DNA from: Bodo saltans
Taxonomy: Eukaryota; Euglenozoa; Kinetoplastea; Eubodonida; Bodonidae
NCBI GenBank assembly: GCA_001460835.1
Contig: CYKH01000281.1
Location: 1 to 26,138, forward strand
DNA: 26,138 nt
Direction of reading: 5' to 3'
Below, in pieces: positions 2 to 25,474 of the stretch. Within the stretch, counting starts at the first letter, position 1. Each line of letters starts with the position of its first letter. The notes beneath the pieces were generated by a model. The model did not search any database, was not told where the DNA came from, and saw only the letters and a program-made list of their open reading frames with translations. The position numbers were made by a program, and so were the translations under genes.

Positions 2-3000
2 ATGAAGTTGGTCCCGTACCTTGGCTCATCATTGTCATGCGGAAAGTCAGGAAAGCCCCTCGAGCGGTCTGTGATTGAGCACGTGATCCTTCCCTTGGCG
101 CAGCTCTACAGTAACTTAGGAATGCAAGACTCTGTCGTTGGATTGTTCTCATCGATTCATTACTTGGAGAGTCAAGATACAACTGGCATCGGCCTTGAGC
201 TCTTGCGAAAATGGTCCGATGCACGAAGTGCTTATTCTGGTTCTCTTCAGATCTCATCGTCACCAGTTCTGCCTGGAACATCGGATCAATGCCGTGAAGG
301 CTACGTGCGTACGTTGTGCATGTGCGGTGAATGGCGCAGTGCTCTCACCGCTGCGAAAGATTTTGTTCGTAGTGCCAGTAGTCCCGGACCAAGCATGAGC
401 CCACAGCAACTTCAAGCTTCGTCATCTGCAGCCAGTAATATTTCCATCTCTGGCGCAACTGCTGCGTGGATTCTCAACGAATGGGACGAAGTTGCTGATT
501 TTGCTCAGCGCATCACGAACGAACCGATGCAGTATTTTTTCGTGAATGCTGTGGTGTTCAACCACGTCAATGACAATCCCAATGGCAACCAAGACCAGTT
601 GATATGCATTCGAGACGCAAGGCTAAGTTTAGAAGCGAGCCTGAAATCCCTTCTACCTGTCAGTTACACGCACGCCTACGACAGTATTACCCTTCTTCAA
701 AATTTCCAAGAAATTTGGGAAGCTGTTGCGTTCCGTCGGGCAAAAACTGCGACTCGACGTAATCAAATCAAAGAAATGTGGGCAGCTCGCGTCAACTCCA
801 TGAAGTCAGACAATTATTTTCAGAAGCTACGATCGCTTATGATCCATTCCCTTGTACTCACTCCTGCAGATATGCCGGAGACGTGGCTACAGTTCTGCGA
901 ATCTGTCCGGCCTACATACCCACAACTTGCAAACTGGGCAATGAGAAGTCTCCAACTTGGCCGACTCGCGAGTACTGCAAGCGACGATATTTCAGCTGCG
1001 GTGGTGGCGAAGGGTACTCCGTCTGTACGCGTTGGATACTTCATGCACTTATGGAATACAGGCAAGCTGAGCGACGCTGTGTCGGGAATGCAATCTCTTG
1101 TTGCTCCCCCCACGCAAACCTGCTCGTGCAAGCTCGAAGAGATTGATCCTCGGTCGTTTGGAATGGGACACTTAAAGTTAGGATTGTGGAAGCAAGAAAT
1201 ACACGCCGATAACTTCTGGAAAGGTGAATTGCGTGATGGAATCATCCACCATCTCCACTCTGCCATTCGAGCCTGCCCTGACGACTACGACACGTGGCAT
1301 GCGTGGGCCCTCATGAACTACCGCATTCAACAGCGTGAAAGTGATTTGGATCGTCGCTCGCAATCTATTTTTGTGTCTAAGGCCCACGAGGGTTTCGTGG
1401 CCGCTATTTGTTTGAGCCCCTCCGCTGCTATCTCACTTCAAGATGTGATGCGTTTGTTGCAGCTTTGGTTCGTGCAAAACGGAGTGAGAACACTGAAGGA
1501 ATCTATCGCCGACGCAGTCCAGCGTATCTCCGTGGAGCACTGGATTCACGTGGTGCCGCAGCTCATTGCTCACCTTGGGCACGATTCTCACGACGTGCGA
1601 GACGTTGTGTTCCGAATTCTTCAAAAAATTGCCCTCGCACATCCTCAAGTTGTCGTGTTCCCTCTCCTCGTCAACATCATCCAAGATCCCAATGTATTGC
1701 CTGCGGACACAACTTCCCATCGTGACAGCCTTTCCATTGCCCTGCTCGAAAAGTACGTCCCTCAGCGTGTTCGCAGAGATGCTGAATGGGCTGGTCGACA
1801 GTTGTGCGCAGCGGCGCTGATGCCAATTGAGCATATTCTTGAGCAAATGACGCTTGTGGCCGAGGAGTGGGCTAACATTGACGCGGTTCAATCCCCAACA
1901 AGGTCATCGATAGGAACTCCTTTTATTGCAAATAGTGACATCCCTCACTTCCCTGTTCCTGCCAAAGACAAGAGCGATACCTACGAGGCTGGAAGTCCCA
2001 ACCTGCACCGCCGAACAAGCAACACAACAGCAGCGAATGCAGCGGAAAAATCAAACGCCTCTTCTGACGAGGAGGACTACTTGAGGGCCATTCGGCGGCT
2101 GATGACTGTTGTGTTTATCTACAAGAACAACCCCACACTTGGAAAACTTGGTGATATTGGAAAATTCACTCAGCAAGTGATCGACTACTCCAGGACAGGG
2201 CAACGGGAAAACGCACGATCATTGCTCGAACAGCTAATCGAAGAAATCACAGAACATGTGAAAAAGATTCGCAAAGCGGGAGAAGATGCCCTTAAGGCAG
2301 TGGAACCTTTGGCGTCCGTGCGTAATCTGTCTGTTTCAATGTTCGGCGAGTACAACTGGACGAATCCGTCACAAGTTCCAACGATTGCATCGTTCAGCAC
2401 TCAATGCGACGTGATTCGCTCAAAGAAGCGCCCACGAAAGATCCGCGTGACTGGATCCAATGGAGCAGTGTATGCGTTCTTGTTGAAAAGTAACGAGGAC
2501 ATCCGCCTCGACGAACGTGTGATGCAGTTGTTCGGTCTTGTCAACTCGTTCGTTGAGCTCCAAAAGAGCTCTGCGAATTGTATGATCACCAAATTTCCAG
2601 TGATCCCCATTTCTGCAAATGTTGGGCTCCTTGGCTGGGTTGAGTACAGTGACACTCTGCACGACGTGATTTCAAACTATCGCACGCTTTCCAGCGCAGA
2701 CGGCTACCTCGAACGCGGCCTCCTTTCAGAGCAATTTGACGAACCCTTCGAAGATCTGATGCGGACGACGTGGCCAAAAGTGCAAATCGTGCAAAAAGCG
2801 GAAGCATTCGAAAATGTGTTCAGCTCTCCAACGTGTGAGTCCGCAGATCTTGCTCGATCTATGTGGCAACGTGCCCCGAGTGCCGAAGTCTGGCTAGCTC
2901 GCCGCACTGCCTTCACAGAGTCCTTGGCAACAATGTCCATGGTGGGGTACATCCTAGGTCTCGGTGATCGCCACATGGGAAATATCATGTTGAACATGAG

Positions 3001-3553
3001 CAGTGGCAAGATTGCCCATATTGACTTCGGTGACTCCTTCGATGTGTGCAGAGTTCGCAACACGATCCCTGAGACGGTTCCCTTCCGCTTAACTCGCATC
3101 CTCATTCACGCGATGGAAGTGTTTGGCGTCGATGGCGTGTTCCGCTCAACGTGTGTGTCCATTTTATCGCTTCTTCATCACCACCGAGATAGCATCATCG
3201 CTCTCCTCTCTGCGTTTATTTATGACCCAATCGTTTCGCATCAAGAGAGCATGCGATCTATCCTGGAGCGTCAATCGGCGCCCCAGAATATTGTTGAGCG
3301 AATTCGTAACAAACTCCGAGGCCTTGAACTCGCAGTGCCAGATCAACAATTCCAGCCTTTCGACAATAAAGGCGCGACGCCAATTATCGCACGACCTGAT
3401 ATCCATTTCGTCTCACATGCGTTCAACGATGAGGCCAAGCGTGATGTCTCTGCTGCATTGGCTCCCAAGGAGCAAGTGGACATGTTAATATCAGAAGCAA
3501 CAAATCTAGAGAACTTATCCTCCATGTACTACGGATGGGCACCGTTATGGTAA
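2..3553 (+). CDS. TOR: TOR-family protein kinase (PIKK), C-terminal 1183 residues, 5' end outside window
   Basis: This is a target-of-rapamycin serine/threonine kinase of the PIKK family, the catalytic core of TORC1/TORC2-type growth-control complexes. The FAT helical region fills roughly residues 1-560 and a divergent FRB-equivalent lies near 590-755. The kinase domain spans about 800-1110, with ATP-site K829 in FLLKS, catalytic loop GLGDRH (D989, R990, H991, N994) and the metal-binding HIDFGD (D1008). The protein ends in a FATC tail, YYGWAPLW, ending in Trp as TOR FATCs do. The sequence after the DFG (PFRLTR, AMEV, DGVFRSTC) also follows TOR rather than ATR, ATM or SMG1. TOR proteins usually exceed 2000 residues, so the ATG at position 2 is almost certainly internal and the N-terminal HEAT repeats lie upstream. 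Kinetoplastids carry several TOR paralogues; which one this is cannot be told here. Confidence 0.93.
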   Translation: MKLVPYLGSSLSCGKSGKPLERSVIEHVILPLAQLYSNLGMQDSVVGLFSSIHYLESQDTTGIGLELLRKWSDARSAYSGSLQISSSPVLPGTSDQCREGYVRTLCMCGEWRSALTAAKDFVRSASSPGPSMSPQQLQASSSAASNISISGATAAWILNEWDEVADFAQRITNEPMQYFFVNAVVFNHVNDNPNGNQDQLICIRDARLSLEASLKSLLPVSYTHAYDSITLLQNFQEIWEAVAFRRAKTATRRNQIKEMWAARVNSMKSDNYFQKLRSLMIHSLVLTPADMPETWLQFCESVRPTYPQLANWAMRSLQLGRLASTASDDISAAVVAKGTPSVRVGYFMHLWNTGKLSDAVSGMQSLVAPPTQTCSCKLEEIDPRSFGMGHLKLGLWKQEIHADNFWKGELRDGIIHHLHSAIRACPDDYDTWHAWALMNYRIQQRESDLDRRSQSIFVSKAHEGFVAAICLSPSAAISLQDVMRLLQLWFVQNGVRTLKESIADAVQRISVEHWIHVVPQLIAHLGHDSHDVRDVVFRILQKIALAHPQVVVFPLLVNIIQDPNVLPADTTSHRDSLSIALLEKYVPQRVRRDAEWAGRQLCAAALMPIEHILEQMTLVAEEWANIDAVQSPTRSSIGTPFIANSDIPHFPVPAKDKSDTYEAGSPNLHRRTSNTTAANAAEKSNASSDEEDYLRAIRRLMTVVFIYKNNPTLGKLGDIGKFTQQVIDYSRTGQRENARSLLEQLIEEITEHVKKIRKAGEDALKAVEPLASVRNLSVSMFGEYNWTNPSQVPTIASFSTQCDVIRSKKRPRKIRVTGSNGAVYAFLLKSNEDIRLDERVMQLFGLVNSFVELQKSSANCMITKFPVIPISANVGLLGWVEYSDTLHDVISNYRTLSSADGYLERGLLSEQFDEPFEDLMRTTWPKVQIVQKAEAFENVFSSPTCESADLARSMWQRAPSAEVWLARRTAFTESLATMSMVGYILGLGDRHMGNIMLNMSSGKIAHIDFGDSFDVCRVRNTIPETVPFRLTRILIHAMEVFGVDGVFRSTCVSILSLLHHHRDSIIALLSAFIYDPIVSHQESMRSILERQSAPQNIVERIRNKLRGLELAVPDQQFQPFDNKGATPIIARPDIHFVSHAFNDEAKRDVSAALAPKEQVDMLISEATNLENLSSMYYGWAPLW

Positions 3554-4031: not shown

Positions 4032-4271
4032 ATGTCATCCCTTCCTCCTCGTCCTGCCTCCGCAACAATACAAGGCAGGTCAGTGGGCCAGCAACAGCAA
4101 CGCCCACAGCGTCCAACATCGGCAACAGCGACGCGTCATTATCAGGACGCCGCATCATCGTCGTCTGCGGTAGACAATGCAAACGATCTTTCCTCGCAGT
4201 CTGCTGGAGAAAGCCATCATGCATCGATCGATTATTCAATTCTTGCTGACAAAGAAACGCGAGCACGTTGA
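4032..4271 (+). CDS. Probable N-terminal segment of the IQ-repeat protein in another frame (or an overlapping upstream ORF)
   Basis: This 79-codon ORF starts at the first ATG after the predicted acceptor at 3992-3993. Its product begins MSSLPPRPASAT and is rich in Gln, Ser and Pro, much like the low-complexity stretches of the large protein that follows. It ends in TGA at 4269-4271, overlapping the first ~95 bases of the ORF at 4177, which reads one base further on (+1). The long frame has a TAG at 4171-4173 and therefore cannot extend upstream itself. The simplest reading is that one base is missing or extra in the assembly, or that the gene is truly frameshifted, somewhere in 4174-4271. An inhibitory overlapping upstream ORF is the alternative. 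The join cannot be placed exactly from sequence alone. Confidence 0.45.
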   Translation: MSSLPPRPASATIQGRSVGQQQQRPQRPTSATATRHYQDAASSSSAVDNANDLSSQSAGESHHASIDYSILADKETRAR

Positions 4272-7200
4272 TGCGGCGTTACATCCGACTGCTGCCGCCG
4301 CTGCTCCTAATGGACGAAAAGGTGCGTGGTCCTCTCCGTTTATTGATGCCAACAGTTCTTCCATTGTGACCACACCGTCGATTGTGAACCTCATGCATGT
4401 CAGTCGATGGAGAAAGTTTAGTAGAGTACAAGTAGAAATTCTTCAATTTAAGCACATCGTCGAACGAGAAGAGCAAGAGCGAGCTTGGTTGATTGGCTGG
4501 TGGTTGCTGTGGCAGCGGCTTGTTTCGCAGTACATTGAAGTTGGGGCTCGTTTTACAACTGTCAATCACCAAATGAGCGTTCCACGCTCTCACCATCGTC
4601 TCCGGCAGCGAACATTGCGCAAAGATTTAGCTCGATCTCTAGAGAAGTTGAGCCGGAAGACACACTTAGCGCAGCGTTTTATGTCATGGCGTCAGTGTCA
4701 CATGATGTCTCGTGAAGAGAACATTATGGAAACTCTGCGGAATGCCGAGCTCGCTAAGAGAATGAAGGGTGGAGAAACAACACAAGATCTTACATCTGAT
4801 GCGCATAGCCCTGGTAGCAAACAACTTAATACTTCGAATATCACTACGACAACAACTGCCAGCGACGCTTCCACGAGAACTCCAACTCGGTTTCGTGGGT
4901 ACGCTATCGAAGATCCATGGAGCCCTTCCACCAACCACAACAACAATTCAGCAGGTCAGCAACATCACCTATCATCCGCAGTCCCGCCCACGAGGCCATC
5001 GTCCACGTCAGACTCTCGCACAGCCTCCGCCTCCTACGGTCATCACCATCCACCAACCGCCAAGTACGTTGACATCAGCAGCATGGATGCGAATGGTTTG
5101 TCTGCCTCGTCTGCGCATGACTCTCAACTGACAAGTAGTGCCGGTGTAAGTCCGCAATACCATCATCGTCAAGCATCAGACAACAGCGATCATAGCAGTG
5201 TTTCTGTTCTTGGTACAACAACAACAACTACAATGGTCGCTGGCCCCCAATACCATGGCAACCAACAACGAGAATTTGTGTCAACTGAGTCAATTGTTAT
5301 CGATGCAGTCATGACATACAGTTCTGACCTCGTTGTCCGTCACCTCAACAAGTTGTGCAAAATAGCGCAGCGCGAGGAAAGTGCCAGACGAAATGAAATT
5401 GTACTGCAAGCCGTAGCGTTTACTGACTCTCGAAATATTGAATTGGCTTGGATTCTTTCGAAGCTGCATGCGGAGTCGCTCCTTCGCATGTTCTCTAGCG
5501 CTGCAATTGAGTTTCAAGAAAGCGCCATTCGCCAAGAAATTGCTCTGATGGAAAGCAGCGAAGTAATCGATCTTATTGTGGAGCACAGGTTAGAAAGGCA
5601 TGCCCTCAACTCGACTATCTCAAAGAATAGCGGTGTGGAGTCTTTGATATCACGCGGAGCCACTTCGTCAGAACAGCTTGCAGGTGTTCCTATCACTGCC
5701 GTCTCTTCTTGCGGCGTTGTGCTCGTGACATCGCCCCCTGGCTCTCCGCTTGTGAACTTTTCCCTCCCAACACCAGAAGATAGCGTTCTTCAGGCATCGC
5801 CACACCCAACCGCGCCCCCTGCACTCGTTTACCAACTCCCACCAAAATTGAAGTTGCTCCCGACAAACCTTGTAGAAGAGCAAGCGTTTCTGCTTCAGCG
5901 AATCGGGCGAGCCTACTCGGCCCGACAAAACACTTTCCGTCACGTGATGTTCTGGAAGGTCGATCGAGGCATCCGCAAGGAGCTCTGGACTGCGTTCACT
6001 CAAGGCCTTATGGTGCTAGCAGGAAAATTAGCTGGTGTAATCGCAACTTCTAGTGGCAAGCAAAGCGAAGAGAAGACGGCGAAACAAGAGCAGCAACAGT
6101 CCGCGATATCTGTGATTCAGCGCGTTTGTCGTGGATCCAAAGCGCGCTCAAATATCAAATTCGTGCAAGGATTTTGGATAGCTGACCACAACGTAAGGGT
6201 CGAGCTGTTCGACGCTTGGCAAAAGAAGGTTGGACGAATTGAATCCCTTTCGCGGCTTCATGTGTCTGAAATTAATGAACGGTTCGCGGTGTGTCGTCAA
6301 GAGAACGCAACCCGCGTCCAGCTAGAAACTGAACGTTGCTTGTCGACCACAATAAAACGCGCAGTTTCTTGTGTTCAGAAAGTAAGTCGAGCGTTTGTTG
6401 CCCGGAAGCATCTCTATCGGCTCCGTTGCTTTTGGGAAATTGACACTCGCATTCGGAAAGAAGTCTACAACGCATGGATCACAAAGGCGGAGACTCTGGA
6501 ACGAGCAGCTGCGAGGAACCTTTTAAGAATGTCGGAGAAGCAAGTTCGACTCGCCATTGACACTTCAGAGGCCGCAGCTTTCAAGAGCATCTTTGCTTTA
6601 GCACAGCCAGCACTGTTACTCTCCGCAAGCGCTCAACAACAGCGCGCCCTTGCAGTATTATGCTTGCAGCGTTGCGGAAGGGGTCATATCGCTCGAAACC
6701 AAAGGAAAGGCATGCATTTATTTTGGGTTGCAGACACGAATATCCGAGGTGAAGCGCTTGAAGCGTGGCAGGCTCACGTCCATCGTATCATGCATTTCTG
6801 TACCACCTCGTATCGGTTGATGTTTGTTGAGGAAACTGCGTCCCGTGCACCAATCGAGCATGATCAAGCACAAGAGCGCAGCAACCTCATGACGTCAGCC
6901 TCTTTGGTTATTTCCCATCAGATACTGGTGGAAACGTCAACGAGCTTGTACGCTTCCGCCCTGCATGCTCGTGAGGTTTCATTAAAGCAGTTTGGCGAGC
7001 TCGCAACGTTCGAGCATCTCCTCATTCGCACCGCGCTTGATGAGTTCTTCGAGAGGACAACCGTAGAAGTCGATGCGTACAATCTTTCGGATTTTAGCGA
7101 GAAGCTCAAGCTTGAATGCCCTAAACCTAGAGAGATCGTCGCTCGTGGCGCCACAGAGGAAGAAAATAGCGATGCTGATGTCAGCAGTGACGAGGAAGAT

Positions 7201-8658
7201 CACAATAACGCCAGCGGCAAAGACCCTCGCAACTTGTCCACTACTGTTGCAGCGGTGTCGTTGGAACCACATGGTTTTCCCAACAAAACCAGCGACAATA
7301 GTGACGCTGAAGTCAGTAGTGACGATGATGGTGATGATGATGGCATCAAAGACAAGAAGACTAGCGATGAATCCGTCGATGTTTCCAGTGAAGACAGCAA
7401 GGAACGCCGCAGCGTAAAAAAGATGTCTTGCACTCAAGATGAGGAAGAAGACGTAGATGTCTCAAGCGACGAAGACGATAGATTTCCAAAAGAGGTTCGG
7501 GCAAACCAAGTTCGTCGCACAGAAGAGCAACAGCAGCAGCAGCAGCAAGCCTTGCCAGAAGTGCCACAACCATCTCATCCGCAGTCGGATGGTGGATCTA
7601 CTGTAGTTGTCGCCTCATCTGAAGATGATGAAGAAGACGATGACGATGTCGACGTTTCCGATGACGATGATGATGCCGATCACAGTGATTTAGCGCTCAG
7701 CGGCATGGTTGAAATGTTGATGCGAATGGAAGCTGCGATGAGGCAACAATTTCAAGAAAACGAGGCGCAAGAGCGTGTTGTACTCAAGAAACATCACACA
7801 GCCGAACTTTCCGCAATTGAAGAAGGTGATGATGATGACGACTCCGACGACGATGGCTCTTTTCATATCGAATCGCCGCAAGCGAACGTCGACTTGCACA
7901 CACCAGCCAAGAGCAATAACACGCATCGACCTCAGTCAATTCTGAAGCGCCGTGTTCCAAGAGCATCATCAGCCGGCGCGAAGCCGAAGAAGAATCTCTC
8001 TCTGTCCCAGAGTATGCAGAGCGGCGAACTACAGAAGTCGACTTCATCGTCTGTGACCCTCCTCCTCCGCCATTCAACATCTGGAGGCCAACCTGACGAT
8101 AGCGTTGAACTTCTCTCCGACGATGAGTCAATCGACGTCACCAGCGATGACAGCAGCAGTGCTGATGACAGCGGTCCCATTGCACCTCCTGCTCCCATTG
8201 CCCCAGCGAAGTCATGGGTCAGAGACACGTACACACGTATTTTTGCTAATCAACGTTCAACGTTGGAGGGCGCCGAGTATGCTGCTCGGTACGAGATTCT
8301 TCAAGAATTGTTCAAGCTACAGCATTCGCTGCTTAGCGCGCAAGAATACTTGATGCGTCACTCGACTGTGATTGTGAACCGCAATGCGTTCGCTCGTAAC
8401 ATGTTAACCACCAAGCAGAAAATGGAGGATATGGTGAAAATGCAACTCCGCAGGGGTAACTCTCTGCTGAACGCGGCAAATGTTGTTTCTTCCCAGCGTC
8501 CTCCCCCTCGCGGCTCGTTGACTAGGACACGATCTAACAGCTCCGACTTTTCTTTGAATTCTACGTTAGCGTCACCTGACTCTATCGCATCTAGGTCGAA
8601 CTCAATGGCGATTGGCAACGCTTCTGTCACGTCAATTCTTCGTGAAGCTCAGTCTTGA
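4177..8658 (+). CDS. Large IQ-motif repeat protein with acidic Ser/Asp-rich C-terminal region (1493 residues)
   Basis: I do not recognise a named family. In order the protein shows: Trp-rich helical segments near residues 70-180 (SRWRKF, WWLLWQR, FMSWRQ) somewhat like the spaced F/W pattern of centrin-binding Sfi1 repeats; a low-complexity Ser/Thr/His region (about 200-360); a helical part (about 370-480); four gapless 34-residue repeats at 574-607, 648-681, 734-767 and 831-864, each starting with an IQ-like motif; and a long acidic tail (about 990-1330) with recurring DVSSD-type motifs and a polyQ run. IQ motifs usually bind calmodulin, centrin or myosin light chains, so a cytoskeletal or flagellar scaffold role is inferred. 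The ATG at 4177 follows an in-frame TAG at 4171. The true N-terminus may be at 4032 in another frame. Confidence 0.85.
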   Translation: MQTIFPRSLLEKAIMHRSIIQFLLTKKREHVDAALHPTAAAAAPNGRKGAWSSPFIDANSSSIVTTPSIVNLMHVSRWRKFSRVQVEILQFKHIVEREEQERAWLIGWWLLWQRLVSQYIEVGARFTTVNHQMSVPRSHHRLRQRTLRKDLARSLEKLSRKTHLAQRFMSWRQCHMMSREENIMETLRNAELAKRMKGGETTQDLTSDAHSPGSKQLNTSNITTTTTASDASTRTPTRFRGYAIEDPWSPSTNHNNNSAGQQHHLSSAVPPTRPSSTSDSRTASASYGHHHPPTAKYVDISSMDANGLSASSAHDSQLTSSAGVSPQYHHRQASDNSDHSSVSVLGTTTTTTMVAGPQYHGNQQREFVSTESIVIDAVMTYSSDLVVRHLNKLCKIAQREESARRNEIVLQAVAFTDSRNIELAWILSKLHAESLLRMFSSAAIEFQESAIRQEIALMESSEVIDLIVEHRLERHALNSTISKNSGVESLISRGATSSEQLAGVPITAVSSCGVVLVTSPPGSPLVNFSLPTPEDSVLQASPHPTAPPALVYQLPPKLKLLPTNLVEEQAFLLQRIGRAYSARQNTFRHVMFWKVDRGIRKELWTAFTQGLMVLAGKLAGVIATSSGKQSEEKTAKQEQQQSAISVIQRVCRGSKARSNIKFVQGFWIADHNVRVELFDAWQKKVGRIESLSRLHVSEINERFAVCRQENATRVQLETERCLSTTIKRAVSCVQKVSRAFVARKHLYRLRCFWEIDTRIRKEVYNAWITKAETLERAAARNLLRMSEKQVRLAIDTSEAAAFKSIFALAQPALLLSASAQQQRALAVLCLQRCGRGHIARNQRKGMHLFWVADTNIRGEALEAWQAHVHRIMHFCTTSYRLMFVEETASRAPIEHDQAQERSNLMTSASLVISHQILVETSTSLYASALHAREVSLKQFGELATFEHLLIRTALDEFFERTTVEVDAYNLSDFSEKLKLECPKPREIVARGATEEENSDADVSSDEEDHNNASGKDPRNLSTTVAAVSLEPHGFPNKTSDNSDAEVSSDDDGDDDGIKDKKTSDESVDVSSEDSKERRSVKKMSCTQDEEEDVDVSSDEDDRFPKEVRANQVRRTEEQQQQQQQALPEVPQPSHPQSDGGSTVVVASSEDDEEDDDDVDVSDDDDDADHSDLALSGMVEMLMRMEAAMRQQFQENEAQERVVLKKHHTAELSAIEEGDDDDDSDDDGSFHIESPQANVDLHTPAKSNNTHRPQSILKRRVPRASSAGAKPKKNLSLSQSMQSGELQKSTSSSVTLLLRHSTSGGQPDDSVELLSDDESIDVTSDDSSSADDSGPIAPPAPIAPAKSWVRDTYTRIFANQRSTLEGAEYAARYEILQELFKLQHSLLSAQEYLMRHSTVIVNRNAFARNMLTTKQKMEDMVKMQLRRGNSLLNAANVVSSQRPPPRGSLTRTRSNSSDFSLNSTLASPDSIASRSNSMAIGNASVTSILREAQS
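5896..6768 (+). repeat. Four tandem-spaced protein repeats (IQ + FW module) within the IQ-repeat gene
   Basis: Units lie at 5896-5997, 6118-6219, 6376-6477 and 6667-6768, with start-to-start spacings of 222, 258 and 291 bases. Each encodes 34 residues that align without gaps. Counting within the unit, all four share Q1, R5, A9-R10, F19-W20, D23, R27, E29 and A33, with Trp (once Phe) at 34 and Ile/Val at 26. The first ten residues are an IQ-type motif. The second part, FW..D..(I/V)R.E...A(W/F), is not part of the classical IQ motif and must be specific to this module. Confidence 0.9.
7171..8160 (+). repeat. Recurring acidic DVSSD-type motifs
   Basis: Short motifs recur at residues 999 (DADVSSDEED), 1043 (DAEVSSDDDG), 1066 (SVDVSSEDS), 1092 (DVDVSSDEDD), 1157 (DVDVSDDDDD) and 1318 (SIDVTSDDSS). 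They are separated by variable linkers and a polyglutamine run near base 7530. Ser followed by Asp/Glu at +1 to +3 fits the casein kinase 2 consensus. Seen directly; phosphorylation is inferred. Confidence 0.85.
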
Positions 8659-8987: not shown

Positions 8988-11900
8988 ATGAGCACGCCTC
9001 GCTCACCTTCAACTGCTCCAATTTCACTTGATGTTTCCTCGGCTGATTTTGATCTTGCCCCAGGGTTTCGCTCGAGTGCAACATCGAACGCTATCTCTCT
9101 TCCAACGCCGCCATTGCCTACGCATCATAGAGTGTTACTCTACAGCACGACTGCATTTGATGTCTTTTTCAAAGTTCGTTCTAGTAACCCGTCAGTCATC
9201 AGTTGCACTCCTGCATCAGGAATGGTGATGCCGTTTGAATCTGTTGTTCTCACTATCGAAGTTCATTCTTTCGCAATTCGCCACCACGACGGCTTGTACC
9301 GCCAACTGAACCTTCAAGCTGAAAATCCAAGACTGAAAATTTCTGCAACAAGAAGAGTAACGCAGCATCACGGATCCAATCAAAGTGAAAATGTATCCAC
9401 AGTCAACATCGCTGCGTCACACAACGTTGTCCTCTCACCTTTTGGTGTCAATCAGATTGATGAAGGTACCTCTGTGATCCCTCCTTCGTCGTTTGTATCG
9501 GAAGGTGTGAGTAGTACGGTGCGCAGGAGAAACCTTCCTACACCTCGAAAAAGCGCAGACATGGAGATGGAGCCCTATTTTGGCCACGTTGCTTCCTCGG
9601 AGGTCTCTTCTTCTGGTGCTAGCGCCCTTCAGCCATCCCGCATCAGCAAGCCGTCAGCTCCAGAGCTGCCAATGCCGCCACAACGGCATGCGGCAACTGG
9701 TGCCCATGAGCCAAGTCCTCAGCCCACAACGCCTCCTACATCACGGACCGCAGCTGTGGACCGTGAAGTTATGGCAAAGCCGCAAACTGCAGCTCCAAAA
9801 ATCCCTATCGTCCCCAACCCCACTGTGTTCCCTCGCGCTGAAGCCCCGATCGTTCCATGGGGAGATGAACAAAACCAGCGCGTTCATGTCCTTGTGCGGC
9901 CACGACCCAAGACCCCACTCGAACTTGAAGCCCACCACGGCGACGAAGTGTGGATACAAACAGAGAAAAGTATCGGTGATGCGGAGAGAACTTATCTCTT
10001 TGATGGAGTGCTCAATTGCTCTGCGTCGAATCGAGATGTTCACGAGTTGGCTGGAGTTCAAACTCTTATGGAGGGCGTCGCAAGAGGCGTGAATGCTTGC
10101 ATGCTGCTGTACGGGCAAACAAACAGCGGCAAGACGCACACCCTTTTCGGCTCTTTTGTGGACCAAGGCCATCACGAGACGAGTTTTGTCGATCAAGTTC
10201 GCAAGGAGCAAGGCCTGCTGTACTTCGCGCTTCATTCACTTTTTCGCTTTATTCGTCATTCAGATGGTGATACCTGCACTCTTTCTTTGTTCGAAGTTTA
10301 CAACGAAGAAGTCCGTGATTTGTTTGCGGACTCGGTGTACTTCGATGAAAGTGGAAACCCTGTTCGCCACAAAAAGGCGCAGCTACTTTTTGACCCAATC
10401 TCAGATGGTTTTCTTATCGATGGCCTGATAGAAACTCCATTCTCTGACCTTGGCAGTGGCCTCGCCCTCCTCAGTGTTGGTCTCACCAAAGTGACACTTG
10501 GAGTTTCTCACATTAACGACCGCAGCAGCCGAGCGCATACAATTTGTAAGGTAAAAGTTTACAAAAGCAACCGATCCCATGATCAATCGCCAACGACCTC
10601 GTCTGAAGTGTTCTTCGTGGACCTTGCTGGAAGCGAATCGCTCGCAGGACCCCAACAGCAGCAAGCAGCACTTGATGCTGAAATTTCAAGCATGATGATG
10701 TCGTCGCTAGCATCGGGGTCTGGTGCTTTAAAGCAAACAGCAGCGTGGACTGATGATTTTTCAAGAGTCAAATCTGCACACCATATTTCGAGATCATCCG
10801 TCTCTAAACGGGAAACTGCAAACATTAATCTAAGCCTGACGTCATTGAAAAAGTGCATCCTGGAGCTTTCACGCCAGCAACGCGCGAATCAGCAGCAATC
10901 GCGCGATGGATCGACTTCATTCCGCAAGTCCGGTTCAATGGCTGCTCGGCCATCAACCGCATCGCGACCTTCCTTTGTCGGCGGATTTATCCCTTTCAGA
11001 GACTCTGTTCTTACAAAAATTCTGAAGACTTCTCTATCTGGAAACAGTCGCGTTCTGATGATCTGCACTGTTTCTCTCAGCGACATGAATTACCGTGAGA
11101 CAAAAGCAACGTTAGCTTTTGGTACGCTGGCGAAGTCAGTCACAACTTCAGCGTTTGCCAACACAGAGCATCAATCGCATCCAAACAACGGCGTGAACGA
11201 GAAATTGAAAGCCCTTGAAAACGAAAATGTTTCCCTCAAGGAACAAATCGCCAACTTGGAAGCGGTTATCATGGCACACACACGAGAAATATCACTTGGG
11301 TCCAACATGAGGGGACTTCTCACTGACGCTGGTGGGAGCGCTCCTCGTGATTCGCTTCCAAATACAGTTTCGTTAGCGCCTAGCGGTGGTGCTTCAGCAG
11401 CGCGTGCTTCTCAGAACGTTGATGCAACACATCTTGTGCAGTTTGAAGCGTCTGAAAAAAGATTGGGAGAACTAGTGGCTGATACTCTTAAATACCTTGC
11501 AGATGGCGTGCGTGCGCTTATCCTCGTTGACCAGTCGACTAGCGTACCACTTCTAACTTCAGCGTCTCGTGGTGGCACCGCTCAACCACCGCTACCTGCG
11601 CGCGGCGGTGCTCAAAAAGATAAAATCGCAAAACTAGCGTCGATGCAACCGTTCAGCAGAACTCAATCCTCCACAACACCTAGGTATCAAGTAACTGCAG
11701 CTCAGCGTGCTGCGCCTGTGGTTCGAGCCGTAACTCTTCGTTTGAAACTACCACAAGGACGATTTGGCGGTGAGGTCATAGTTGTCGATGGTCTGAAACA
11801 ATATCGAGTGAAGATTGAAGACATGTCAAGAGTTGTTCTCGGGAAAAACTTCCCCGAACTTCGTGCCGCTGCCACAGCGACTCAAGCTGAAGAAGATGCA

Positions 11901-12755
11901 GAATCAGCAGCATTTATCCCGACAAAAACTCTGGCGTCTGTTTCCATTTTTCCATTTTCAAGCGTAGGTATAAGTACCAACAACTCACCACGACTTGCTA
12001 CCAAAGACCCGCTTCTCACATTCCTCTGCTCGGAAGAAAGTGACTTGGAGGGTTGGGTGATTGCGCTGGCGCACCTATCAACACAAGGCAGCAGCAGCGG
12101 ACCTGGTGCTTCATCAACATCATCTGCAGTTTCCATCCGAACAACGAATGTCTTCATGTCTTCTCTAGATGCTGCCAAAGGTTCTGGTGCTTCTAATCGT
12201 TCCGTGGCCCCTCCAACAACTTCAACGTTCCTTCGTTCAAAATCATCATCGGGTGGGCTGCCATCGCAAACCGTTCGCCGTCCGCCGATTCTCTTCTCGT
12301 GGGATATCAATACAATTGCCCGAAATTTTCCTTACGCGGTGAAGAGTGCATTCCAACAACAGCCATCTTCGAGGACGGCTCGAGGGCAACTGCCATCCTT
12401 CGTAGTTCTCCCTCGCAACAACCGTAGAGATGATATTGATGATTCTGATGATCAAATCCCTACAGATGTAGATCTCCTTCTCGCTCAATTAAGCGAGAAG
12501 GAGTTGCTACTGTGCAAACAGCACAATATTGATTTGGCGGAATATCTTCAAACTCGAAGTTTTATTCTTGGTGATGTCCCACAACAGGGAACTGAAGGGC
12601 AAACGAGGCGATCCATGTTGATCAGTTTGTACGACATCCGATTGAGCTGCCCGGTTTCCTTGTACCAAGCATTTGTGGTGGTGAAGTTTCTTCGAGATCA
12701 ACGGTTGATCCTTGATCTCCACGCATACCTGAGCTCAGGCTTCGCACATTTGTGA
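8988..12755 (+). CDS. Kinesin-like motor protein with N-terminal MSP-like domain and possible PH-like C-terminal region (1255 residues)
   Basis: A microtubule motor ATPase. Residues about 20-95 resemble a major-sperm-protein/VAP beta-sandwich (FDLAPG, then VFFKVRSSNP and TPASGMVMPFESV). The motor spans about 296-718: P-loop GQTNSGKTHT (G376-T385), switch I NDRSSRAHT (N510), switch II DLAGSE (D545), NINLSL (N612), IPFRDS (I668) and a closing TLAFGTLAKS. Two insertions enlarge the motor: about 45 extra residues between DLAGSE and NINLSL, and about 25 before IPFRDS. A short coiled coil follows (about 728-755). Residues about 915-1032 could be a PH-like fold split by an insertion, ending in a helix with LEGWVIAL. 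MSP and PH domains often tether proteins to membranes, so cargo or membrane attachment is inferred. All nucleotide-binding motifs are intact. Subfamily is not assignable by eye. Confidence 0.92.
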   Translation: MSTPRSPSTAPISLDVSSADFDLAPGFRSSATSNAISLPTPPLPTHHRVLLYSTTAFDVFFKVRSSNPSVISCTPASGMVMPFESVVLTIEVHSFAIRHHDGLYRQLNLQAENPRLKISATRRVTQHHGSNQSENVSTVNIAASHNVVLSPFGVNQIDEGTSVIPPSSFVSEGVSSTVRRRNLPTPRKSADMEMEPYFGHVASSEVSSSGASALQPSRISKPSAPELPMPPQRHAATGAHEPSPQPTTPPTSRTAAVDREVMAKPQTAAPKIPIVPNPTVFPRAEAPIVPWGDEQNQRVHVLVRPRPKTPLELEAHHGDEVWIQTEKSIGDAERTYLFDGVLNCSASNRDVHELAGVQTLMEGVARGVNACMLLYGQTNSGKTHTLFGSFVDQGHHETSFVDQVRKEQGLLYFALHSLFRFIRHSDGDTCTLSLFEVYNEEVRDLFADSVYFDESGNPVRHKKAQLLFDPISDGFLIDGLIETPFSDLGSGLALLSVGLTKVTLGVSHINDRSSRAHTICKVKVYKSNRSHDQSPTTSSEVFFVDLAGSESLAGPQQQQAALDAEISSMMMSSLASGSGALKQTAAWTDDFSRVKSAHHISRSSVSKRETANINLSLTSLKKCILELSRQQRANQQQSRDGSTSFRKSGSMAARPSTASRPSFVGGFIPFRDSVLTKILKTSLSGNSRVLMICTVSLSDMNYRETKATLAFGTLAKSVTTSAFANTEHQSHPNNGVNEKLKALENENVSLKEQIANLEAVIMAHTREISLGSNMRGLLTDAGGSAPRDSLPNTVSLAPSGGASAARASQNVDATHLVQFEASEKRLGELVADTLKYLADGVRALILVDQSTSVPLLTSASRGGTAQPPLPARGGAQKDKIAKLASMQPFSRTQSSTTPRYQVTAAQRAAPVVRAVTLRLKLPQGRFGGEVIVVDGLKQYRVKIEDMSRVVLGKNFPELRAAATATQAEEDAESAAFIPTKTLASVSIFPFSSVGISTNNSPRLATKDPLLTFLCSEESDLEGWVIALAHLSTQGSSSGPGASSTSSAVSIRTTNVFMSSLDAAKGSGASNRSVAPPTTSTFLRSKSSSGGLPSQTVRRPPILFSWDINTIARNFPYAVKSAFQQQPSSRTARGQLPSFVVLPRNNRRDDIDDSDDQIPTDVDLLLAQLSEKELLLCKQHNIDLAEYLQTRSFILGDVPQQGTEGQTRRSMLISLYDIRLSCPVSLYQAFVVVKFLRDQRLILDLHAYLSSGFAHL

Positions 12756-16472: not shown

Positions 16473-16541
16473 GAAAACGCATATTGCTGTTTTTTCTTGT
16501 TTTGAAAAGTGCCTCTTTCAATCTGTTTCTTCACATCACTG

Positions 16542-16566
16542 CTTCTTTGTTTTCCATTGGTAATAG
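16542..16566 (+). promoter_or_regulatory. Predicted spliced-leader acceptor for the five-helix membrane protein
   Basis: Pyrimidine tract ending with AG at 16565-16566, 17 bases before the ATG at 16584. The in-frame GTG at 16509 lies upstream of it and is not used. Confidence 0.6.
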
Positions 16567-16583
16567 CTGCGCGGTTCGTCGTC

Positions 16584-17315
16584 ATGAGCGACGCTCAACA
16601 ATATTTTGAGATGATGGAGAAGTTGAAAGCGAAGGCAGTGAAGAAAGTCGAAGCATCAAGCCTTGATTTTCTCACAGCAGACGCCCTTGTGTTAGCCTCT
16701 CAGGAAATTTTGATTCTTGTGGGCGTCACAGCAGTCTTCTCACTCATTGTTTTTATTCTGCTCAGCCGAGCTTCTTCTCGCAAGCGCATCGCCAAAATTC
16801 GGAAGACGTTTTTTGTTCCCCCATCGTGGTTTGGAATTGCTTCAGGAATTTGTGCCTGGGAGTCTCTCCATGCGCTTACTTCTGTTGTTATCTTTGTCAA
16901 GCGTGCAACATCTGAGGCTCCCCTTGGAGAGGGGTTTGCATCGTCTGATCTTTTCAACTGGATTATCTTCGCAGCCGACACTGCGGTGATTTTCGGATTT
17001 GCGGTGACTCTTGCATTCGATATCGACCTTGGTTACGCGGTACTGGCGTGCCTTGCGTCCATTGGCACGTCATTCTATCAAACTGCAAGTGTCACAGAGA
17101 ACCTTGCGCTTGCAGGATATCTGGGCCTTGTGAATGTACTGTTCGCATTGTTTTGGTGCGTGGGTATTGGCAAAGGCTGGATTAAGTCAGAAATGCACTT
17201 GGCGATGCGTGAGCTTGAGGGTATGGGTGTGTCGAAAGAGACAACATCGGCGTTGGCCTCTAAAATGGGGCAACGAAAAGGACCCAAGAAACCGATGCCT
17301 AAGCGTTCAGCGTGA
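16584..17315 (+). CDS. Five-helix membrane protein, possibly divergent TspO/MBR-like (243 residues)
   Basis: Five hydrophobic segments are visible at about residues 39-61, 81-105, 123-147, 149-168 and 174-197, preceded by a short helical N-terminus and followed by a basic 45-residue tail (QRKGPKKPMPKRSA). The order resembles the TspO/translocator family: PPSWFG opens the second helix as PPGW does in TspO, and GTSFYQTASV followed about ten residues later by AGYLGLVNVLFAL recalls the FY...PYLxWVxFAxxL region, at roughly the usual spacing (about 100 residues from the PPSW). However, the conserved Pro of PYL is replaced and the Trp content is low. TspO proteins bind sterols and porphyrins in outer mitochondrial or bacterial membranes. 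I treat this as a weak family call; the membrane topology is firmer than the function. Confidence 0.7.
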   Translation: MSDAQQYFEMMEKLKAKAVKKVEASSLDFLTADALVLASQEILILVGVTAVFSLIVFILLSRASSRKRIAKIRKTFFVPPSWFGIASGICAWESLHALTSVVIFVKRATSEAPLGEGFASSDLFNWIIFAADTAVIFGFAVTLAFDIDLGYAVLACLASIGTSFYQTASVTENLALAGYLGLVNVLFALFWCVGIGKGWIKSEMHLAMRELEGMGVSKETTSALASKMGQRKGPKKPMPKRSA

Positions 17316-17536: not shown

Positions 17537-17554
17537 TAAAGGCGGCGCGTGGCG

Positions 17555-18664
17555 ATGGATCGCAGAGCCGCGATGGAAGCGATGGTTCGCCTAACTCACG
17601 AGAGATGTGCTTCACCACCATCACTGGTTACCCCACCGCCAGCAGTAACAACTTCGATTCAACGGGCTCCGTCACCAGCTATGTTCAGTCGTGACGACGT
17701 CATTTTATCATTGAAGCGAGCTCACCAAAAAAATCAGAGATCTAGAGGCGTTGATGCAACAATTTCTGTAGAAGCTGACGCAACAGTCTTACCCCAGCTC
17801 TGCAGCGTCGTTGGCCAAATTCCCCTGCATCCCCCTCCACAACGTGCGAAGTCACCCACGACTCCGATCACAAGAACAAACAGCGAAAACGTCCTTGCGA
17901 CAGCAAATTGCTCCTCCCCGTTGTCAACGCTCTCACTAACAACCGATAAATGTCAATTTCCTTCCACAGACATTGACGTGCAGTTGGCAGGTTCGTTGAT
18001 GGGGAGACCAGATGTCGGCAGTATCGGTGGGCACGCAAGCTGCGATCATTTTTTTGACAGCCCTCATGCTGATGATCGAGAGCACGATCGAATATTGAGA
18101 AAGGCTGGCTATCTCAATGCCACAGACTTCGAAAATGACGATGAGCGTCAACTCGCAGTTGCACAAGCAAAAAAAATCGCAACTCGGCGGGCCCTGCATC
18201 GATCACTCCACGTCCACCAAGCTCAGCCCCTTCCTCCGTCGAACGAGTCTCCGCATGAATTCACGTACCACACATCCACTCCCCCTCGAAAGCAGCGGGC
18301 CGGCGGTCAACGTCTTTCACCACCACCATTAGGAACACCAGGTACTCAACAACATGAAATTGCGCTCGCAAACGCGCTTACTAAGTATTCGAACTCTCGC
18401 CTTCACTACCGAAGTGCTACCTCACCACAGCAACAATCGAAGAGAGTGGCGGTGATCAACGACTCTCAGCGAAGCGGCGGAAAGCGTGAACCCCTTCCAC
18501 CTGGCCGCATGTTGTCGCCAATTCCAATGCCTACATCGGAACTTGTCAATCGAACGTTAACGATGTTGGAGGGTATTGACTCATTGTCACTGACGACAAC
18601 TGGGGGAAACTGCTTTCGATTGTCATCTGACATTCAGTTCTCTTTGAAAGGATCCTTTCGCTGA
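17555..18664 (+). CDS. Hypothetical Ser/Pro-rich protein (369 residues)
   Basis: Not recognised. The protein starts MDRRAAMEAMVRL (an in-frame GTG two codons upstream is not needed). It is mostly low-complexity and probably disordered, with many Ser-Pro/Thr-Pro sites (for example APSPAMF, AKSPTTP, RLSPPPLGTPG, MLSPIPMP), which are possible targets of proline-directed kinases. Two short helical stretches stand out: FSRDDVILSLKRAHQK (about 45-60) and an acidic-to-basic segment about 175-215 (DREHDRILRKAGYLNA, then AQAKKIATRRALHR). There are no membrane segments or signal peptide. The ORF is real judging by its length, its intergenic spacing and the acceptor site just upstream. Function unknown. 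Confidence 0.75.
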   Translation: MDRRAAMEAMVRLTHERCASPPSLVTPPPAVTTSIQRAPSPAMFSRDDVILSLKRAHQKNQRSRGVDATISVEADATVLPQLCSVVGQIPLHPPPQRAKSPTTPITRTNSENVLATANCSSPLSTLSLTTDKCQFPSTDIDVQLAGSLMGRPDVGSIGGHASCDHFFDSPHADDREHDRILRKAGYLNATDFENDDERQLAVAQAKKIATRRALHRSLHVHQAQPLPPSNESPHEFTYHTSTPPRKQRAGGQRLSPPPLGTPGTQQHEIALANALTKYSNSRLHYRSATSPQQQSKRVAVINDSQRSGGKREPLPPGRMLSPIPMPTSELVNRTLTMLEGIDSLSLTTTGGNCFRLSSDIQFSLKGSFR

Positions 18665-23640: not shown

Positions 23641-24060
23641 ATGATGGAGCAACGACCATTTGATCGCGACCTCACTGTCGTTCTTCGAGCAGGGAAGCGT
23701 CATGTGTTTCAGTATTGTCGAGATTTAAACCAGACGTGGCGTTCTCTGGTAGGGGCTCTTGTAAATTTATTCATTGTTCCCACGTCCGCCTGGAAACTTC
23801 TTATTCGAGTGGTGGATGGCTATGAACTTGCCTCTCCTGACGACAACGTCCCTGCTTCGCTCCTGCACTGCAGCCAGTTTGTTTCAAAATCAGGCCGCGT
23901 TGAAGTTTTCCTAGTTGTTCCAAATTCTGATGGACTTTTCCCCAGTGTGCCAAGTTGTGACTCCGATATGTCATTCGTCCCGTCTGATGCTCCTGTGCAG
24001 CTTCCAAAAGGGTTAGTCGACTTCATTGATCACTTGCGGCCTGCTTCGCAAGTCTCATGA
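23641..24060 (+). CDS. Small hypothetical protein (139 residues)
   Basis: Not recognised. It starts MMEQRPFDRD; the second Met three bases later is an equally possible start. Alternating hydrophobic strands (LTVVLRAG near 11-18, WKLLIRVVDGYEL near 51-63, VEVFLVVP near 87-94) and a central helix (about 30-46) are compatible with a small ubiquitin-like or PB1-like fold, but this is only a visual impression. There is no signal peptide, and the C-terminus (LPKGLVDFIDHLRP) looks helical. The gene sits 150 bases after the GST and only 82 bases before the HEN1 start. It is likely real given its acceptor-like upstream tract and the uniform gene spacing. Confidence 0.6.
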   Translation: MMEQRPFDRDLTVVLRAGKRHVFQYCRDLNQTWRSLVGALVNLFIVPTSAWKLLIRVVDGYELASPDDNVPASLLHCSQFVSKSGRVEVFLVVPNSDGLFPSVPSCDSDMSFVPSDAPVQLPKGLVDFIDHLRPASQVS

Positions 24061-24107
24061 GTTGTGTGACTGTTGCATCTTTCTTGTAAGTTGTTTTATT
24101 GTGTTTA

Positions 24108-24139
24108 CACTTCAAACTTCTCCTATCTGTCTTTATCAG
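24108..24139 (+). promoter_or_regulatory. Predicted spliced-leader acceptor for HEN1
   Basis: Pyrimidine-rich tract ending TTTATCAG with AG at 24138-24139, three bases before the ATG at 24143. It rules out the in-frame TTG extension back to 24026, which would overlap the previous gene. Confidence 0.7.
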
Positions 24140-24142
24140 TTG

Positions 24143-25474
24143 ATGCGTAAAAATGGCGTCGATCATGGCTCACATCACTTCATGCCCCCGTTGTTCAACC
24201 AGCGGTTGCGGTTTGTGACCGATCTGGTGGAGAGTAACGGAGTTCAATCCGTACTAGATGTAGGTTGCAGCGGAGGTCAGTTGCTGCATTTCCTCATTAT
24301 GTCATGTCGCCGCGAAAATTCGTTGCGCAGGTACGTTGGATTTGATGCGAGCCGAGATGCTCTTCATCGAGCCTCCGCATCGTTACCGACTTCGTTGTGC
24401 CCCACGGAACTCCTTTACTCGTGCGACATTAACTTTGTGGAAGGTGACATCTCTCTAGACGAAACGCGATTATCACGAGATGTATTGCAACTCTTGGAAA
24501 ACAAGTTTGAGCTGATCGCTTGTATCGAGGTGATTGAGCACGTTCCAAAGGCACGCTTGGGATCGTTTCTAACAACAATATTCGATTCTCTTTGCACAAT
24601 ATGCAATGCTCAGACTGTCGTTCTCACCACTCCAAATCGCGACTACAATTGGCTGTTTGGCTCGCAACAGCAGCTGCTTCGCCATGACGATCATAAATTT
24701 GAGCTCTCGCATGCTCAATTTGTAAGGCTATGCACAATCATTTACCGGCAGTTTTCTGGTTGGACTTTGGAATTTTCAGTAGTTGGAAGAGGCGCAACCC
24801 AGTGCGCCGTCTTTCGACGTGACGGTACAGTCCGTTTTTCGCAAGAAAATTGTATCCATATTGGTGAGTTCCAGCGGAAAGTAGAGTCAATCTTTGACGA
24901 TCTCGAGGATGCCGTTGTGCCCTCTCTTGAACTTGAAGAGATTGACGCGCCTCTTCGTATTTTCCGGGGTGTTGCAACTGTTGCGGCAGTTGATGTGTGG
25001 GAGCGTTTACGGCGTGCAACAGTTCAGTATGCGACGCGACTGCACCATGAGCGTCGCGTTGACATTATCGTGCTTCAGATAAACGATATTATCGCTTCGA
25101 CTGAACTCATTTCCGACCTCACGTTGACACCACTTGCACTTTACTCCGCAATGCAAAATCTTCAAAAGTCTCTCAGTTCAAGTAGCGGTCATGAGATATC
25201 ACGGTGTGGCAATTACCAATCCACATCCAATGCGAACTTCAACTGCTGCTGCACAGAATGGATTCTGGACTCGCAACATCTCGTTGAAAGTGCATTGGGG
25301 ATTACAACAATCGACTGGCTCAACGACACAGTTGCGATCGGCAAAACATTAGTCTTCGAGATTGCCATAACGCTCGCAAATTTAGGCTACTGTTTCCACG
25401 CTGGTAGTCCTGTCACGGTCGTATCGGACACCTCTCAACGACGACAGATCGTCGCCCAGTCTGATAATGCGTAA
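24143..25474 (+). CDS. HEN1: HEN1-type small-RNA 3'-terminal 2'-O-methyltransferase (443 residues)
   Basis: Predicted to add a 2'-O-methyl group to the 3' nucleotide of small RNAs, protecting them from uridylation and decay. The Rossmann methyltransferase domain (about 13-215) opens with FMPPLFNQR, typical of the family. It has the SAM-binding VLDVGCSGGQL (D39-G45), the VGFDAS acidic strand and the HEN1 metal-binding signature: E129 and E132 in EVIEH, H133, and H184 in DDHKFE. It also has TTPNRDYN near 155. All four metal ligands are present, so the enzyme should be active. About 220 further residues follow with no domain I recognise; plant HEN1 has extra domains N-terminally and bacterial Hen1 differs again. 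Its presence suggests an Argonaute-based small-RNA pathway (inference). Confidence 0.92.
   Translation: MRKNGVDHGSHHFMPPLFNQRLRFVTDLVESNGVQSVLDVGCSGGQLLHFLIMSCRRENSLRRYVGFDASRDALHRASASLPTSLCPTELLYSCDINFVEGDISLDETRLSRDVLQLLENKFELIACIEVIEHVPKARLGSFLTTIFDSLCTICNAQTVVLTTPNRDYNWLFGSQQQLLRHDDHKFELSHAQFVRLCTIIYRQFSGWTLEFSVVGRGATQCAVFRRDGTVRFSQENCIHIGEFQRKVESIFDDLEDAVVPSLELEEIDAPLRIFRGVATVAAVDVWERLRRATVQYATRLHHERRVDIIVLQINDIIASTELISDLTLTPLALYSAMQNLQKSLSSSSGHEISRCGNYQSTSNANFNCCCTEWILDSQHLVESALGITTIDWLNDTVAIGKTLVFEIAITLANLGYCFHAGSPVTVVSDTSQRRQIVAQSDNA

Follow-up and report, generated by a model that had tools for sequence, protein, structure and literature searches.

The locus raises the question of what is encoded where an IQ motif runs on, 4 times in 1 protein, into a second conserved block: an extended docking site for EF-hand proteins, an element of helix packing, a diverged repeat of a known family, or an ordinary IQ motif followed by residues that are alike by chance. 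The window, that is, the whole stretch of 26,138 nucleotides analyzed (Bodo saltans, assembly GCA_001460835.1, contig CYKH01000281.1), carries a series of long ORFs on the + strand in the ORF listing, and the repeat lies in the middle of one of them.

4177-8658, + strand: repeat-bearing ORF, 1493 aa, carrying all four IQ-FW units
5881-6012, + strand: unit 1 in its 44-aa form, with the 34-aa core at 5896-5997 (residues 574-607); its FW block ends in F instead of W
6103-6234, + strand: unit 2 in its 44-aa form, with the core at 6118-6219 (residues 648-681); best Pfam IQ match among the units
6361-6492, + strand: unit 3 in its 44-aa form, with the core at 6376-6477 (residues 734-767)
6652-6783, + strand: unit 4 in its 44-aa form, with the core at 6667-6768 (residues 831-864)
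5950-5997, 6172-6219, 6430-6477, and 6721-6768, + strand: FW blocks of units 1, 2, 3, and 4, FW..D..[IV]R.E...A[WF]

The sequence-only reading had described 4 gapless units of 34 residues; their start and end were reproduced exactly, and the 10 positions it called invariant (Q1, R5, A9, R10, F19, W20, D23, R27, E29, and A33) were shared by all four units in a gapless alignment. Linkers, given there as 40-63 residues, measured 40, 52, and 63 residues. The regular spacing it proposed did not hold, since the steps from unit to unit were 74, 86, and 97 residues and are therefore not regular. The length of 34 residues stood for the core and proved too short for the whole: with the F of the FW block numbered 0, columns -22, -20, -19, -16, +19, and +22 lay beyond the core and were hydrophobic in 4 of 4 units, and because such columns recur outside the core, the sequences suggest a pattern of about 45 residues, not 34. 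Altogether 16 of the 81 columns examined were hydrophobic in all four units; at a 45% share of hydrophobic residues, approximately 3.5 such columns would be expected. The step from Q to F was constant at 18 residues, which by arithmetic makes five helical turns; none of the 4 units contained a proline, and the three linkers together held a single one, P811.

We compared the units with shuffled sequence and with each other to obtain the support and the age of the copies. Within residues 560-905, aligning four segments without gaps gave at best 10 invariant columns, against a maximum of 4 over 300 shuffles, and the best pair of units shared 16 identities, against 12 at most in 300 shuffles of the same residues, the low shuffle values being lower bounds as the search was greedy. 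Profiles built from 3 units recovered the fourth at 29.3, 36.2, 39.8, and 38.0 bits for units 1-4. With the FW half alone (24 columns), the same leave-one-out test gave 8.2, 18.9, 16.4, and 17.2 bits, and with the IQ half alone (20 columns), 9.3, 5.7, 9.7, and 9.9 bits, so that the FW half is the stronger half in 3 of 4 units, and each half of unit 1 is weak by itself. With the FW columns only, the place listed was each time that of the left-out unit (4 of 4); units 2-4 came out at E 0.005-0.032 and unit 1 at E 12 (database size set to 100000). A chance or low-complexity repeat is ruled out by the shuffles and the leave-one-out recovery. Pairwise identity between units was 12-16 of 34 residues in protein and 39-52% in DNA over 34 codons, and of the 10 invariant positions, 8 are encoded by differing codons, the exceptions being Q (CAG in all four) and W (a single codon). 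Because of this DNA identity and codon variation, the four copies are old as judged from their sequences, and a recent DNA duplication or an assembly artefact is ruled out by the same figures. We infer that the sequence has been kept by selection on the protein.

We searched for domain models covering the unit. The IQ motif (PF00612) matched the whole 1493-aa protein at 26.2 bits and a 322-aa segment at 35.1 bits in 3 stretches, both above the cut-off of 20.3; on single units 2, 3, and 4, it scored 20.0, 16.7, and 15.0 bits, none of which reaches the cut-off, and the IQ half of unit 1 had no Pfam IQ match even at E<=10. PF00612 was also the sole Pfam model on the whole protein at E<=1, a level at which no motor domain was found upstream of the IQ motifs; Pfam Sfi1 (PF08457) was absent both from the listing of the protein at E<=1 and from those of its pieces at E<=10, and HMMER filters discard most matches above about E 0.1 in listings at either threshold. 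The FW half of units 2-4 was not covered by any Pfam model listed. On unit 1, a Transposase_22 match spanning the FW half (14.3 bits, cut-off 22.4, E 0.053) was taken for chance. The earlier description of the unit as a recognizable IQ motif joined to a conserved block was thus borne out, with PF00612 found in 3 of 4 units and the FW half without a named model, and full cover by a Pfam IQ or Sfi1 model, named beforehand as a refuting outcome, did not occur. Against the PDB, the whole protein had no relative, and the 322-aa segment had three matches at E 0.48-0.78 that were unrelated. The unit profile had seven matches at E<=10, with the IQ half matching myosin VIIa (E 0.051) and myosin-5A (E 8.2), and with the FW half matching zinc-finger chains of PARP1 in four rows over FWKV..SIR (E 1-1.5) and an archaeal protein (E 1.4), which were taken for chance. 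In literature titles and abstract openings, we found no earlier description of the IQ-FW unit.

The Bodo saltans genome was searched over 29.3 Mb in 934 contigs. The strict pattern FW..D..[IV]R.E had 4 matches, all within gene 4177-8658 (control, 0), and a looser FW pattern had 7, of which the 3 outside the gene (one on the + strand, two on the -) were rejected as relatives for having no IQ motif within 60 codons upstream. The unit consensus found only the four units at E<=10, and searches of the genome with the N-terminal and C-terminal parts of the protein returned only this gene, with no paralogue or second copy. IQ matches numbered 42 in the genome. On 30 of these loci the unit profile reached at best 8.9 bits, over IQ columns 1-21, and no match touching the FW columns exceeded 3.2 bits; the remaining 12 places were covered by the genome-wide searches with the FW pattern and the unit consensus.

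Relatives in other organisms were sought in a set of 5.8 billion proteins. Words from residues 560-900 gave 3564 candidates and, at E<=0.001, only the window's own protein; the 322-aa segment gave 2697 candidates and no match at E<=10. Both searches required shared exact 5-residue words, which limits their reach, and proteins of 564-820 aa, of <177 aa, and of more than about 2610 aa lay outside the length limits of both. As a control, the zuotin-like neighbor recovered 184 proteins from the same set, the window's own included; among the 120 listed, full-length ones were found at 71%, and Trypanosoma, Leishmania, Leptomonas, Phytomonas, and Angomonas at about 44-52%, so kinetoplastid proteins are numerous in the set. 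Because zuotin is much more conserved than the IQ-FW protein, the control shows the kinetoplastid content of the set, not the detectability of a fast-evolving relative. Either the IQ-FW protein is confined to a narrow lineage, or these searches miss its relatives because of fast evolution or a large difference in length. Since no orthologue was found, the constraint on the FW block is visible only between the copies. Four stretches of viral contigs fit a pattern; none is a relative, and they carry no weight for a eukaryotic gene. By these sequence comparisons, then, the repeat is real and old, extends the IQ motif by a block that no model was found to describe, and sits in one gene without known relatives.

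The reading toward which we lean, tentatively, is that of a kinetoplastid scaffold with four extended docking sites for EF-hand proteins, in which the IQ helix continues into a second contact block. The four units would be diverged copies of one module in such a scaffold, each forming one straight alpha-helix of about 45 residues. The C-lobe of an EF-hand protein (calmodulin, centrin, or another light-chain-like protein) would grip the IQ half, and the conserved F/W/I/L/A/W residues, with the D and R downstream, would offer a contact for the N-lobe or for a second EF-hand protein. Four such complexes would stiffen the middle of the molecule, where the units separate an N-terminal half rich in serine and threonine from a C-terminal half that is acidic. 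This docking is favored by the gapless repeat, the match to the IQ model, the absence of prolines from the units, the constant step of 18 residues, and a helix prediction for unit 3: with the other three units as alignment, AlphaFold2 modeled the 62-residue unit 3 as one helix over residues 2-61, a prediction that rests on four alignment rows, and the best of five models had a mean pLDDT of 76.7. It is also favored by the plentiful EF-hand genes of the genome (76 EF-hand_7 matches from 150 of 192 candidates scored) and by an aromatic N-lobe precedent in myosin II.

The earlier statement that classical IQ motifs do not continue with this aromatic/acidic block is not supported as worded, since some IQ motifs, that of the precedent among them, do have aromatic residues after them. 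PF00612, the motif of myosin necks, resembles the units in Q...R[GA]..AR, in the hydrophobic residues that precede it, and in its several copies per chain. Its model has 21 positions, whereas the units run gaplessly on into FW..D..[IV]R.E...A[WF]. Myosin-neck IQ motifs lie roughly 23-25 residues apart and are thus closer-set than the units, whose copies follow each other at 74-97 residues. In the myosin II IQ2 motif, the regulatory-light-chain site (residues 814-842 of myosin-7), the IQ motif is followed by aromatics, as in the units, with W at Q+12 and Q+14 and a proline between them; W829 of myosin II is placed in the N-terminal lobe of the light chain (PMC10232470). The IQ-FW units, in a protein without a motor domain, instead carry F and W at Q+18 and Q+19 with no proline between, and the contact geometry would therefore differ from that of myosin II.

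Docking is weakened by several results. Clustering of the invariant positions on a single face of the helix does not exceed chance (P 0.06 for all ten, 0.13 for the FW part), and the IQ halves are weak, with unit 1 missed by Pfam and the others singly below the cut-off. The other four models of unit 3 were low (pLDDT 51-70), and a single-sequence model of 366 residues (540-905) had a mean pLDDT of 35.8, was of no use, and was discarded. A strict centrin triad, in either direction, occurred within the units only at residues 604-611, at the edge of unit 1. A more specific proposal takes the unit as a distinct kind of EF-hand docking repeat, present 4 times in one scaffold that originated within kinetoplastids. 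A straight helix would join an IQ site to an invariant aromatic/charged site at a constant distance, so that one light chain is gripped by both its lobes or two different EF-hand proteins are bound. In our judgment, this proposal is rather unlikely to hold in full.

The main rival, possible though somewhat doubtful, takes the FW block as an element of helix packing or self-association and the upstream IQ-like half as a degenerate remnant or a separate site. Positions 0, 3, 7, 11, and 14 would form a coiled-coil-like stripe, with a possible salt bridge between D4 and R8. All four units have hydrophobic residues in columns 0, 1, 3, 7, 11, 12, 14, 15, 19, and 22, as packing leads one to expect; the better recovery of the FW half in 3 of 4 units (8.2-18.9 bits overall, against 5.7-9.9 for the IQ half) points the same way, as does the lone proline of the combined linkers. 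Packing does not explain, however, why the block is joined without a gap to an IQ-like motif in each of the four units, and an invariant F-W pair is unusual in a plain coiled coil.

It is improbable that an Sfi1-type centrin-binding repeat, diverged and placed after an IQ motif, makes up the FW block. Sfi1 repeats (PF08457) are likewise W-anchored and present several times in one chain, and positions 7, 12, and 15 of the units ([IV], [WFYL], and [WF]) resemble part of the Sfi1 consensus AX7LLX3F/LX2WK/R (PMC9406199). At position 8, however, where the consensus has its second L, the units have an invariant R, and they are without the Pfam Sfi1 match. No place in the 1493-aa protein had more than 4 of the 6 features of the consensus; of the nine with 4, two (residues 70 and 163) had W as required, neither within a unit, and one (residue 590) overlapped unit 1 without the required W. 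Outside the units, an N-terminal stretch of the same protein fits the centrin 1-4-8 triad as defined in PMC9406199, with LAQRFMSWR fitting it in reverse.

4489-4692, + strand: N-terminal stretch fitting the centrin 1-4-8 triad (LIGWWLLW, WWLLWQRL, WLLWQRLV, and LAQRFMSW then R); motif match only

The genome also contains a separate Sfi1-like ORF (L062, G000:C129:1658-2149) with many F..W repeats, scoring 26.1 bits at a cut-off of 22. A profile of 14 W-centered pieces of this ORF had four matches in the 1493-aa protein at -0.4 to -2.8 bits, none on the FW blocks, which argues against an Sfi1-type origin; the best (-0.4 bits, against up to 3.9 in shuffles) lay at residues 74-85, and the match at -2.8 bits lay at residues 738-752, in the IQ half of unit 3. 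In the other direction, the FW profile listed nothing on the Sfi1-like ORF. Ordinary IQ motifs with a chance resemblance downstream are scarcely credible: IQ motifs are common in the genome and unit 1 is found weakly from the FW half, but that half still places the left-out unit in every case, shuffles give 4 invariant columns at most, and the FW columns stay at or below 3.2 bits at the 30 IQ loci profiled.

Should the FW block be a second EF-hand contact, it would show a way of lengthening an IQ motif into a docking site of probably greater selectivity, and the kinetoplastid cell would gain a light-chain-decorated scaffold. Should it be a packing element, it would still be a repeat unnamed by the domain models tested. 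As a single gene without known relatives, the case has limited general weight until relatives are found.

The neighboring ORFs were annotated by Pfam and PDB searches. A TOR-like kinase lies directly upstream of the IQ-FW gene.

2-3553, + strand: TOR-like kinase, C-terminal part; best PDB match mTOR, E 5.4e-114
8988-12755, + strand: kinesin, with a weak N-terminal MSP-domain match (PF00635, 20.3 bits, cut-off of 25.9 not reached)
24026-25474, + strand: HEN1-like small-RNA 2'-O-methyltransferase; PDB 4xcx, E 1.2e-18

The PDB match of the HEN1-like ORF spans residues 51-281 of 482, and its long C-terminal part is without a match. Other neighbors were a zuotin-like chaperone, YIF1, a PRP38-family protein, and a glutathione S-transferase, and a further ORF had a leucine-rich-repeat match below the Pfam cut-off. 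ORFs 16509-17315 and 17549-18664 had no match in the Pfam search.

Two short motifs recur in the IQ-FW protein outside the units. The first lies in an acidic region downstream of them.

7171-7665, + strand: acidic region with four strict copies of [DE][VIA][DE][VI][ST][SD][DE]

Shuffles (n=2000) gave a mean of 0.007 copies and a maximum of 1, and looser copies, judged by eye, lie near the strict four. The copies presumably resemble casein-kinase-2 sites or SUMO-interacting motifs. The second motif, E[SY]A.R.EI, has three copies on the + strand at 5377-5400, 5518-5541, and 8275-8298; at most 1 copy appeared in 5000 shuffles, for a pattern picked after the copies were noticed.

All 42 IQ matches and all 76 EF-hand matches listed in the genome were on the + strand, which suggests that the contigs have been oriented by their coding strand. 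The kinetoplastid spliced-leader 3' pattern occurred at 15 places in the genome (control, 0), 7 of them within the first two bases of a contig. Together with kinetoplastids being the nearest organisms named among the zuotin matches, this pattern marks the host as a kinetoplastid. Among five of these loci examined (contigs C26, C51, C56, C109, and C154), 3 were contig starts, 1 followed a run of N, and 1 was internal. The assembly may contain some transcript-derived sequence.
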